A stretch of 64,000 nucleotides of DNA from Bacteroidia bacterium (GTDB taxonomy: Bacteria > Bacteroidota > Bacteroidia > Flavobacteriales > Flavobacteriaceae): positions 434,001 through 498,000 of the forward strand of contig JAUIDI010000002.1 of assembly GCA_030428705.1 (NCBI GenBank). The letters run 5' to 3'. The position numbers were made by a program, and so were the translations under genes. Numbering within the stretch: the stretch's first letter is position 1; each line of letters opens with the position of its first letter. Shown in pieces: positions 46,259-54,789 of the stretch. The notes under the pieces are model-generated. The model was not told the DNA's origin. It did no database searches and saw nothing but the letters and a program-made list of their open reading frames with translations.

Positions 46259-47368
46259 TCACAACTCTTCGATGACCTTGGCCAATCGCATGGTAATCTC
46301 ATCAATGGCACCTATGCCGTTTATACTATGGAACTTTCCCTGGGCCTCATAGAAATCTTTCAGGGGAGCCGTTTTTTGGTTATATTCCTCAAAGCGGTTA
46401 CGGATCTTGTCTTCGTCTTGATCGTCGCTACGACCGCTAACCTTTCCGCGCTCCAGCAATCTTTTGATCAATACTTCGTCATTGGCTTCCAAAGCGATGG
46501 TGGCATCGATTTTCATGTTCTTGGTAGCCAAAAATTTATCCAAGGCCTCAGCTTGGGCAGTAGTTCGCGGAAAGCCGTCGAAAATGAATCCACTTGCATC
46601 GGGATTTTTATCTACGGCATCTTCCAACATTTTGATCGTAACCTCATCGGGTACCAGATCACCGTTGTCGATATACGATTTGGCCAACTTGCCCAAATCG
46701 GTGTCGTTCTTCATATTGAACCTGAACAGATCTCCCGTTGAAATGTGTTCCAAGTTGTATTGGTCTTTTAAAAATTGGGCCTGCGTGCCCTTTCCTGCCC
46801 CCGGTTTTCCGAATAGCACAAGATTGATCATATGTTTTTGGTTTAGTTGGTATACTTCCCTTAAGTTTCTGCCGAGTTCCATGTAATCGAGTCCGTAGCC
46901 CACGATAAATCTATCGGGTATCTCGATACCCACGTAATCGATGGTATATTCGCCGTTGTAGATTTCCGATTTGTAGAAAAGGCTGGCGATCTTGAATTCC
47001 TTTACGTTGATGTTCGAGAACATGTGGATCAGTTCTTGAAGCGTGCGGCCGGTATCGATGATATCCTCTAAAATAATCACGCTTCTGCCCTCGATATTCT
47101 CTGATACGTCCAACAAGGTTTCAACGATACCCGTTGAGGTCAGGCCGCCATACGAACTCATTTTCACGAACGACACTTCGCACGGATGCGGATAGGCCTT
47201 TAAAAAATCGGATACGAACATAAAGGCCCCGTTGAGCACACCGACAAAAATCGGGGTTTCGTCCTTATAATCGATAGCAATCTTGTCGGCGAGGTCTTTT
47301 ACGGCCGACAAGATTTCCTTTTCGCTCAAATAAGGCTTAAAATATTTGTCGTGCAGCTTTATCAACAC
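46259..47368 (-). CDS. Fused hypoxanthine phosphoribosyltransferase - adenylate kinase
   Basis: 369 residues. Residues about 1-175 are HPRT: LHDKYFKPYLSEKEI, VGVLNGAFMFVSDF, and the PRPP loop VIILEDIIDTGRTLQEL. Residues about 180-369 are adenylate kinase: LVLFGKPGAGKGTQAQFLKD, ISTGDLFRFNM and FDGFPRTTAQAEALD, with a short LID (RGKVSGRSDDQDEDKIRNRF). One protein would make IMP/GMP from bases and balance ATP/ADP/AMP. No ATG is in reach: the start is GTG (47368) or TTG (47365, giving MIKLHDKYF). Near purK/purE, so purine genes cluster here. Confidence 0.92.
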   Translation of the reverse strand: MLIKLHDKYFKPYLSEKEILSAVKDLADKIAIDYKDETPIFVGVLNGAFMFVSDFLKAYPHPCEVSFVKMSSYGGLTSTGIVETLLDVSENIEGRSVIILEDIIDTGRTLQELIHMFSNINVKEFKIASLFYKSEIYNGEYTIDYVGIEIPDRFIVGYGLDYMELGRNLREVYQLNQKHMINLVLFGKPGAGKGTQAQFLKDQYNLEHISTGDLFRFNMKNDTDLGKLAKSYIDNGDLVPDEVTIKMLEDAVDKNPDASGFIFDGFPRTTAQAEALDKFLATKNMKIDATIALEANDEVLIKRLLERGKVSGRSDDQDEDKIRNRFEEYNQKTAPLKDFYEAQGKFHSINGIGAIDEITMRLAKVIEEL

Positions 47369-52704: not shown

Positions 52705-53064
52705 TTAATCGGGAGTGGCCCCCTTCCAGGCATCATAGCCCCCCTCCAAATTGACCACATTGGTATAGCCTAAAGTTTTGAGCCTTTCCTGAGCCTTTGC
52801 ACTCCGGCCTCCCATCTTGCAATACACGTAGATTGTCTTATCCTTCGGAATTTTTTCGAACTGCTGGATAAAGGTCTCATCAAACCAGTCGATGTTCAAC
52901 GCATTGTCCAAATGCCCCGCGTTATATTCCTCGGGTGTACGAACATCTACCAATATCCCATTTTCTATATCATTCTGTGAAAATTCTGTGATAGGTTTTG
53001 ACGTACTTTGGGCACATCCCAAAGTCAATAAACAAAATATCAATAAACTAACGATCGACTTCAT
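52705..53064 (-). CDS. Rhodanese-like lipoprotein
   Basis: 119 residues with lipoprotein signal MKSIVSLLIFCLLTLGC. The rhodanese domain (about 30-115) has GILVDVRTPEEYNAGHLDNA and the active-site loop YVYCKMGGRSAKAQERL with the catalytic Cys. Such proteins handle sulfane sulfur; a periplasmic or outer-membrane place follows from the signal. A TATCTTTG promoter element stands 17 bases upstream, sharing the short region with the sigma-factor gene. Confidence 0.9.
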   Translation of the reverse strand: MKSIVSLLIFCLLTLGCAQSTSKPITEFSQNDIENGILVDVRTPEEYNAGHLDNALNIDWFDETFIQQFEKIPKDKTIYVYCKMGGRSAKAQERLKTLGYTNVVNLEGGYDAWKGATPD

Positions 53065-53081
53065 AGGTATAAAGATTTAAC

Positions 53082-53089
53082 CAAAGATA
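53082..53089 (-). promoter_or_regulatory. -7 element of the rhodanese-like gene
   Basis: Exact TATCTTTG on the minus strand, 17 bases upstream of the ATG at 53064 and only eight bases from the sigma-factor ATG on the other strand. No clear -33 element. Confidence 0.5.
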
Positions 53090-53096
53090 ATAAATT

Positions 53097-53744
53097 ATGA
53101 TGGCCAGAAAATTTGAACGACCCGACAGAAACATGAAGGTAGTTAAACCAAATTCAATTACTTTTGATATGCATGAAAAAAATATGACGGCGCACCAATT
53201 AAATCCGGACACTTGGGTAGATTCGTATGCGGACTATCTCTTCAATTACGCCATCGCGCGCGTTAGCGATACCGAAATTGCCAAAGATTTGGTACAGGAG
53301 ACTTTTTTCGCTGGATTGAAATCAGCCAAGAACTATAAAGGAGATGCCGCCGAGCGAACATGGTTAATAGCCATTCTGAAGCGAAAGGTTATCGATTATT
53401 ATCGCAAAATCAATTCTAAAAAGGGAAAGGCCGAGGTGCGGGTCAACTATAGTTCGAACGGTGATAGTGATGGTGACTGGATAGAAGAGCAGGTCGCCGA
53501 CCCATTTAGTTCGTTTGAAAATGACAGCTTGGAAAATGAAGAGCTCGGCGTTGCCATATATGACTGTATCGCGCAATTACCTCAAAAACAATCGTTGGTC
53601 TTTACGATGAAAACAATCCGAGGAATGAGCACAGAGGATATTTGTAATGAACTTGATATTAACCCGTCTAATCTTTGGGTTATGATCCATCGCGCCAGAA
53701 CCACGTTGATGGGATGCCTTAATCAAAATTGGTTTAATCTATGA
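53097..53744 (+). CDS. ECF-type RNA polymerase sigma factor
   Basis: 215 residues as drawn. Region 2 reads SYADYLFNYAIARVSDTEIA, KDLVQETFFAGLKSAKNYKG and AERTWLIAILKRKVIDYYRK; region 4 reads IAQLPQKQSLVFTMKTIRGM and STEDICNELDINPSNLWVMI. The first 35 residues are atypical, so a later Met (residue 13, 25 or 30) may be the true start. It directs polymerase to a stress- or signal-specific promoter set. Its stop overlaps the next gene by four bases (ATGA). Confidence 0.92.
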   Translation: MMARKFERPDRNMKVVKPNSITFDMHEKNMTAHQLNPDTWVDSYADYLFNYAIARVSDTEIAKDLVQETFFAGLKSAKNYKGDAAERTWLIAILKRKVIDYYRKINSKKGKAEVRVNYSSNGDSDGDWIEEQVADPFSSFENDSLENEELGVAIYDCIAQLPQKQSLVFTMKTIRGMSTEDICNELDINPSNLWVMIHRARTTLMGCLNQNWFNL

Positions 53745-53968
53745 TTTCCTGTGAGGAGGCAGCTACGATCTGCAACAAAACACAATACAAGGAGGCTTCT
53801 TTTTCAGAAAAAATCCAATTGAAGTTACATTTACTCTTTTGTAGTACTTGCGCCATGTTCTCTAAAAAAAATGCCAAATTGACCAATCTATGCCAAAAGG
53901 CAAACCTTCAAAACTTGACTGAAAAGGAAAAATTGAAGATGAAACAAGAGATACGGAAAAAAATCTAA
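53741..53968 (+). CDS. Small soluble ZAS-like protein, probable anti-sigma factor
   Basis: 75 residues. LKLHLLFCSTCAMFSKKNAK contains His-x3-Cys-x2-Cys, the zinc-binding anti-sigma (ZAS) motif, and further Cys occur near the N-terminus (MISCEEAATIC). Translationally coupled (ATGA overlap) to the ECF sigma gene, which fits an anti-sigma partner. Unlike most, it has no membrane helix. The role is inference from motif and position. Confidence 0.72.
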   Translation: MISCEEAATICNKTQYKEASFSEKIQLKLHLLFCSTCAMFSKKNAKLTNLCQKANLQNLTEKEKLKMKQEIRKKI

Positions 53969-54789
53969 AAATAGTGTTCTAAATACAAAATCACCCCCCA
54001 CCAGAGTATAGGAATTGATTCTACCCAAAAAGAGACAAAGTATTTGGAACGCTCTTTTTTAACATAGAAAAGGGCAAAGCCCAACATCAAACTTAATACA
54101 GCCTTCCCCAATATTTCATTCAACATTAATTCGTCTTTCAAAAAAGTCATTGTATAAAAAAGCAAAGTGACAATGACCCCGACCTTCTTTGTTTTCATGA
54201 TACCTATTCGCTGAGGCAATGTGTATAAATCAAAGTCGTCATATTTCAGGTCACGTATTTCAAAGGGAATCATGAGTATCAGCACGAGCAAAAAACGCTG
54301 TATCAATTCGACCCAAACATCCCAATTCATGATTTTATTTGCTTCGATAGCCGGAAGCATAACGGTCGTCAATGACCACACCAAACCCACCAAAAAAATT
54401 TTTAACAGCCCACGACTGCGAAGATTTCTGCCCTGGGGCATAACGGGCAAAGCATAAAGCCCTGTCAAGACTAAAATGGCGCCAATACCCAACCATGTTT
54501 TGTAATTAAAAAAACAGGCGTGATACAGGGCAGCTATCAGTGCCGCAAAACTCGCAATTTGAATATCCTTATGGTATCGATTGGATACAAGTATATACTT
54601 TTTCGACTCAACACCGTATTTTATGAAATTATAACAGGCGATCGTACCGAAAAAAAGATAATATGATAAGTGAGTGTCCATTTCAATTTTTAAAATGATA
54701 TAGGTGATTTGAACCAATGCAAATACCGCCAATGCCACATGTACGCTGGCATCTAGATAGAAATTAAAAAGGCGTACGGGCAACTTCAT
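53965..54789 (-). CDS. UbiA-superfamily-like polytopic membrane protein
   Basis: 274 residues with about eight hydrophobic helices. The segment IPFEIRDLKYDDFDLYTLPQRIG resembles the second Asp-rich motif of UbiA prenyltransferases (R-D-x-x-x-D-D), and LYALPVMPQGRNLRSRGLLK the loop before it. The first Asp-rich motif (N-D-x-x-D) is not clear; CYNFIKYGVESKKYI occupies that place. Substrate unknown. Converges with the ZAS-like gene with a four-base overlap. Confidence 0.65.
   Translation of the reverse strand: MKLPVRLFNFYLDASVHVALAVFALVQITYIILKIEMDTHLSYYLFFGTIACYNFIKYGVESKKYILVSNRYHKDIQIASFAALIAALYHACFFNYKTWLGIGAILVLTGLYALPVMPQGRNLRSRGLLKIFLVGLVWSLTTVMLPAIEANKIMNWDVWVELIQRFLLVLILMIPFEIRDLKYDDFDLYTLPQRIGIMKTKKVGVIVTLLFYTMTFLKDELMLNEILGKAVLSLMLGFALFYVKKERSKYFVSFWVESIPILWWGVILYLEHYF

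Follow-up and report, generated by a model that had tools for sequence, protein, structure and literature searches.

A putative soluble ZAS-type anti-sigma factor paired with an ECF sigma factor in the Flavobacteriaceae: a candidate cytoplasmic zinc/thiol switch

Within the window, by which we mean the whole 64,000-nucleotide stretch of Flavobacteriaceae DNA analyzed here, an ECF sigma gene runs directly into a gene for a 75-residue protein, and the two almost certainly represent a Bacteroidota branch of the soluble ZAS anti-sigma switches known from Neisseria, Haemophilus, and Streptomyces. We consider it likely that they form a soluble class I ZAS anti-sigma/ECF pair working as a cytoplasmic zinc/thiol switch that is released by oxidants. 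The sequences themselves establish that the pair exists and is widely conserved, where the ligands lie, which fold is predicted, and that the smaller partner lacks a membrane helix. No Bacteroidota member of this system is described in the literature that we searched, and we found no experiment on one. To the known systems, our analysis adds their breadth in this phylum, a corrected start and promoter for the sigma gene, a lineage-specific cysteine (C11), and natural variants without H30 and C37. A soluble thiol/zinc pair that occurs across most genera of a large marine family makes a good candidate for a general response to oxidants in that family.

An ECF sigma gene and its short, soluble partner

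The long version of the sigma ORF lies at 53097-53744 on the forward strand and overlaps the small ORF (53741-53968, forward strand) through the ATGA at 53741-53744, an arrangement already described in the first-pass annotation. Sigma-70 regions 2 and 4 are recognized in the sigma ORF (Pfam Sigma70_r2 and r4, E about 1e-12), and the highest-scoring NCBIfam family is TIGR02943, whose cut-off of 162.2 bits the ORF does not reach (130.8 bits). The cysteines and the histidine of the small protein are C4, C11, H30, C34, C37, and C51. Direct reading of the sequence places the HxxxCxxC motif, as HLLFCSTC, at residues 30-37 (53828-53851, forward strand), and 25 residues separate C4 from H30, in agreement with the ZAS pattern C/H-X23-26-H-X3-C-X2-C. 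Both this motif and the two N-terminal cysteines (C4 and C11) had been noticed earlier and are present as claimed; by ligand position, the protein would be of the C-first type.

Its assignment as a soluble ZAS-type anti-sigma factor draws on a family score, on conservation, and on an AlphaFold model. Residues 1-45 align with profile positions 1-45 of the NCBIfam family NF052368 (antisigmaE) and score 46.9 bits, just short of the cut-off of 50, and the same profile matches 23 of 24 relatives at an E-value of 0.01 or better; as judged by profile score, the protein of the window is a close relative of this family and formally outside it. Pfam zf-HC2 (PF13490) has no match in the small protein, the only zf-HC2 domain of the genome being encoded at another locus, and a PDB sequence search returned nothing relevant, with no match to RsrA-type entries beyond the motif. 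The AlphaFold model, built with 24 family sequences, has a pLDDT of 92.9 and predicts a four-helix bundle (helices 4-15, 21-33, 35-53, and 61-74). The 13 best PDB fold matches of this model are all anti-sigma domains (RsiW, MucA, RslA, and ChrR); each is weak alone, with an E-value of 1 or more (best E 1.3), but we regard the agreement among them as telling.

A membrane helix had been said to be missing from the partner, and hydropathy bears this out: the maximum 19-residue Kyte-Doolittle mean is 0.72, and none of 96 relatives has a membrane-type hydrophobic segment by the same measure (all at or below 1.6). FecR-type and other membrane-anchored anti-sigma partners of Bacteroidota carry a membrane helix and often stand beside TonB receptors. 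The present protein resembles FecR-type partners in being encoded next to an ECF sigma gene, but is soluble and lies in a purE, M3 peptidase, and gcvP neighborhood. The first-pass annotation had set it apart from the usual membrane-bound Bacteroidota anti-sigma factors, and within its own genome it does stand apart. Sigma region 4 exceeds the Pfam cut-off at 25 loci of the genome, and for 21 of these a simple scan identified the following downstream ORF; most ECF partners in the genome have a likely membrane segment, and the only one of the 21 shorter than 100 residues is the 75-residue protein, which has no hydrophobic segment. The only other ZAS partner, encoded directly after another ECF sigma gene (locus L143, G000 contig 14, about 170050-171000), is 266 residues long and has a likely membrane helix, with a hydrophobic segment near residue 95. 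In a published survey, a class I anti-sigma domain was found beside only 6% of Bacteroidetes ECF factors.

The small protein is present in 81 of 101 Flavobacteriaceae genomes, each from a different genus, and a phylum-wide profile search located it, with weaker scores, in 43 of 297 genomes, other classes included. Together, the family and phylum loci yielded 96 anti-sigma sequences, on which our conservation counts are based. A sigma homolog adjoins the small protein on the same strand in 95 of the 96 loci, and from this conserved position beside a sigma gene we take the small ORF to be more than a chance reading frame. A large genus within the family (g102) departs from the general distribution: 15 of its 17 sampled genomes have no match to the small protein, and the remaining two have a diverged relative only, without C11.

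Conservation of the predicted ligands and natural variants

The first-pass annotation had made its reading depend on conservation of the His/Cys residues in orthologs. The counts do not refute that reading but bear it out only in part: C4 and C34 are almost invariant (94 and 95 of the 96 copies, respectively), whereas H30 (84 copies) and C37 (85 copies) are lost together in 11 of the 96. C11, an additional thiol in predicted helix I, is kept in 76 copies: almost every copy belonging to the sigma lineage typical of the family has it, mostly within a CDKxQY motif, while all 16 diverged copies, two of them from Flavobacteriaceae, lack it. Every copy that lacks C11 keeps H30, C34, and C37.

The reduced sites follow a single pattern. 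Eleven of the 96 copies, from eleven genera, carry R30 and T37, always together and usually with W33; C11 and C34 remain in every one of them and C4 in ten, so that these variants retain the pair equivalent to C11 and C41 of RsrA. Because eleven genera lack H30 and C37, canonical zinc binding cannot be a requirement in every member of the family. On the sigma tree, the R30/T37 state needs six changes, which suggests repeated loss of H30 and C37; an AU test on a quick tree did not reject a single R30/T37 clade (p 0.08). We tentatively raise the possibility, to which we give less than even weight, that in some genera the protein is a disulfide-only switch without the canonical zinc site (H30R and C37T, with C4, C11, and C34 kept). 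If true, such variants would separate thiol sensing from zinc within one protein family. The variants lacking H30 and C37 also allow a direct test of what zinc does in such switches, with no need for designed mutants.

One further copy (L036:3432-3650) is isolated: it has no sigma neighbor and is the second copy in its genome, the first being part of a normal pair. It carries R4, F30, and S34, and is possibly a decaying paralog or one with a new role.

The proposed switch and its alternatives

Three characterized systems resemble the pair. MseR (NMB2145) of Neisseria meningitidis is likewise a small soluble anti-sigma factor encoded directly after its sigma gene, and its ligands C4, H30, C34, and C37 have residue numbers identical to those found here, whereas the Flavobacteriaceae copies have C11, in the CDKxQY motif, as an additional conserved cysteine. 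The cysteines of MseR are needed for its activity and H30 is not; in meningococci treated with peroxide, diamide, or singlet oxygen, transcript levels of rpoE and msrA/msrB are unchanged. The ZAS anti-sigma factor HrsE of Haemophilus influenzae, with 67 residues, is similarly short and cytoplasmic and shares a transcript with its sigma gene; it co-purifies with RpoE2 and abolishes RpoE2 activity, and hypochlorite (HOCl) raises rpoE2 expression in that organism. RsrA, the SigR partner in Streptomyces coelicolor, shares the CHCC zinc site, its ligands C11, H37, C41, and C44 being the present C4, H30, C34, and C37 shifted by 7, and its first-position cysteine is required for redox sensing; RsrA has 105 residues and seven cysteines, whereas the present protein has 75 residues.

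From MseR, HrsE, and RsrA, we infer sigma binding, zinc binding, a disulfide trigger, and the class of signal for the present pair. In the switch that we propose, the sigma and anti-sigma genes would form one operon, and the reduced anti-sigma factor, with zinc on C4, H30, C34, and C37, would keep the sigma factor from RNA polymerase. Under disulfide stress, or with hypochlorite or a similar oxidant, C4 would be joined to C34 or C37, possibly with the involvement of C11; zinc would then leave, helix I would be pinned, and the freed sigma factor would transcribe a stress regulon. Several observations weigh against this proposal, among them the unchanged transcript levels in meningococci, the NF052368 score just below cut-off, the missing zf-HC2 match, the reduced sites in eleven genera, and the lack of a recognizable ECF-type promoter at the msr genes of this genome.

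Some of the same observations could be read differently. The zinc and cysteines might be structural, with release of the sigma factor brought about, for example, by proteolysis, by a partner protein, or by turnover of the anti-sigma factor. Other class I anti-sigma factors, RsiW for example, carry the motif yet bind their sigma factors independently of zinc, mixed zinc and non-zinc groups exist and were read by their authors as pointing to a structural role, and the joint loss of H30 and C37 in 11 genera that retain the pair fits such an account. However, the most conserved candidate ligands are C4 and C34, precisely the thiols of an RsrA-type disulfide, the two persist together in 10 of the 11 reduced-site copies, and the small protein has no extra sensing domain; we therefore judge a purely structural role rather unlikely. 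It is less probable still that the protein senses zinc or another metal, inhibiting when zinc is plentiful, releasing when it is short, and so controlling metal uptake. While the CHCC site is predicted, by position, to bind zinc, the zinc ligands are lost in 11 genera, no metal transport genes occur in the conserved neighborhood (40 loci), and the characterized relatives RsrA and HrsE are tied to oxidants rather than to metal supply.

The missing Pfam match and the NCBIfam score below cut-off would also suit a small zinc protein of another kind that is co-transcribed with the sigma gene by chance and is no anti-sigma factor at all. Against this stand an almost unbroken association with a single sigma lineage (95 of 96 loci), the fold matches to anti-sigma domains, the match to an NCBIfam anti-sigma family, and ligand numbering identical to that of MseR, and we consider this the most improbable of the readings. 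The oxidant-released zinc/thiol switch is the one that we favor.

Start, promoter, and neighborhood of the sigma gene

The sigma gene probably starts at the ATG at 53184, rather than at 53097, and would thus span 53184-53744 on the forward strand and encode 186 residues, beginning at residue 30 of the long ORF. We prefer this start because (i) homology to most relatives begins around residue 28-30 of the long ORF, (ii) a conserved -7 box points there, and (iii) substitutions in codons 1-29 do not follow the pattern of coding DNA. An open extension upstream of the ATG at 53184 is common to the window and seven relatives and has little codon periodicity: in these eight sequences, differences at codon positions 1, 2, and 3 amount to 0.42/0.32/0.46 in the disputed extension (53097-53183, forward strand), compared with 0.17/0.06/0.50 in the true coding part of the sigma gene. 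The extension is therefore probably promoter and leader DNA, not coding sequence. The long start at 53097 is disfavored on these grounds, yet position 2 is mildly conserved in the extension and the seven relatives share a similar open one.

Within the long ORF, at 53159-53166 on the forward strand and 17 nucleotides upstream of the preferred ATG, lies TACTTTTG, which fits TAnnTTTG, the -7 box of housekeeping promoters in Bacteroidota; promoter mapping in Flavobacterium psychrophilum gave this as the -7 consensus of sigma-A (PMC9723704). When 67 loci are aligned at the ATG that matches residue 30, TAnnTTTG occurs at most 75 nucleotides upstream of it in 57, with 3.3 expected from mononucleotide shuffles, and mostly ends 16-27 nucleotides before it; no -33 element stands out in the 67-locus upstream alignment. 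A housekeeping-type promoter seems to drive the operon. Upstream of the sigma gene we recognized no autoregulatory promoter of the ECF type, although no motif is established for this sigma factor and a second promoter of that type may be present. Autoregulation of the meningococcal kind is not evident: the MseR-sigmaE system is autoregulated, whereas the present sigma gene has a housekeeping-type box.

A link to methionine sulfoxide reductase, as in Neisseria and Haemophilus, was considered and set aside. While HrsE is linked to msrAB and hypochlorite, the genome of the window encodes MsrA and MsrB domains, two of each, all of them away from the pair, and no GAAC...CGT-type promoter was recognized in the 220 bases upstream of its msr genes.

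On the other side of the sigma gene, a divergent gene at 52705-53064 on the reverse strand encodes a rhodanese-like lipoprotein (Pfam Rhodanese, 5e-24). With the sigma start at 53184, the region between the two genes measures about 119 bases (53065-53183), in place of the 32 bases first reported, and it holds a second, minus-strand match to TAnnTTTG, TATCTTTG at 53082-53089, which is a candidate -7 box of the rhodanese gene and is retained in several close relatives. The first-pass annotation had taken this neighbor as a hint of a sulfur or redox theme. We do not follow it in this, since the neighbor belongs mainly to one lineage, the divergent genes have separate housekeeping-type boxes, and the spacer is longer than supposed. 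Of 95 loci, only 15 have a rhodanese gene near the pair; 12 of these 15 belong to the window's own lineage of 13 genomes, and one of the 15 is a weak match in another part of its locus. Where flanks are short, a few rhodanese genes at a greater distance may have been missed. Among the closest named loci (Maribacter and relatives), the gene is found in 16 of 19. The rhodanese neighbor is thus probably not a functional part of the switch.

The conserved surroundings are of a housekeeping kind, as read in 40 longer loci, 39 of which have a sigma hit, with gene names taken from translations: purE and an M3 peptidase gene lie upstream, and a convergent membrane protein gene and gcvP lie downstream, with no obvious regulatory target among these neighborhood genes. 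The convergent membrane protein, encoded in the window at 53965-54789 on the reverse strand, has no Pfam match; 36 of the 40 loci have it at this place, with the anti-sigma gene on one side and gcvP on the other. Elsewhere in the window, a single 369-residue ORF at 46259-47368 on the reverse strand looks, from its translation read by eye, like a fusion of hypoxanthine phosphoribosyltransferase and adenylate kinase.
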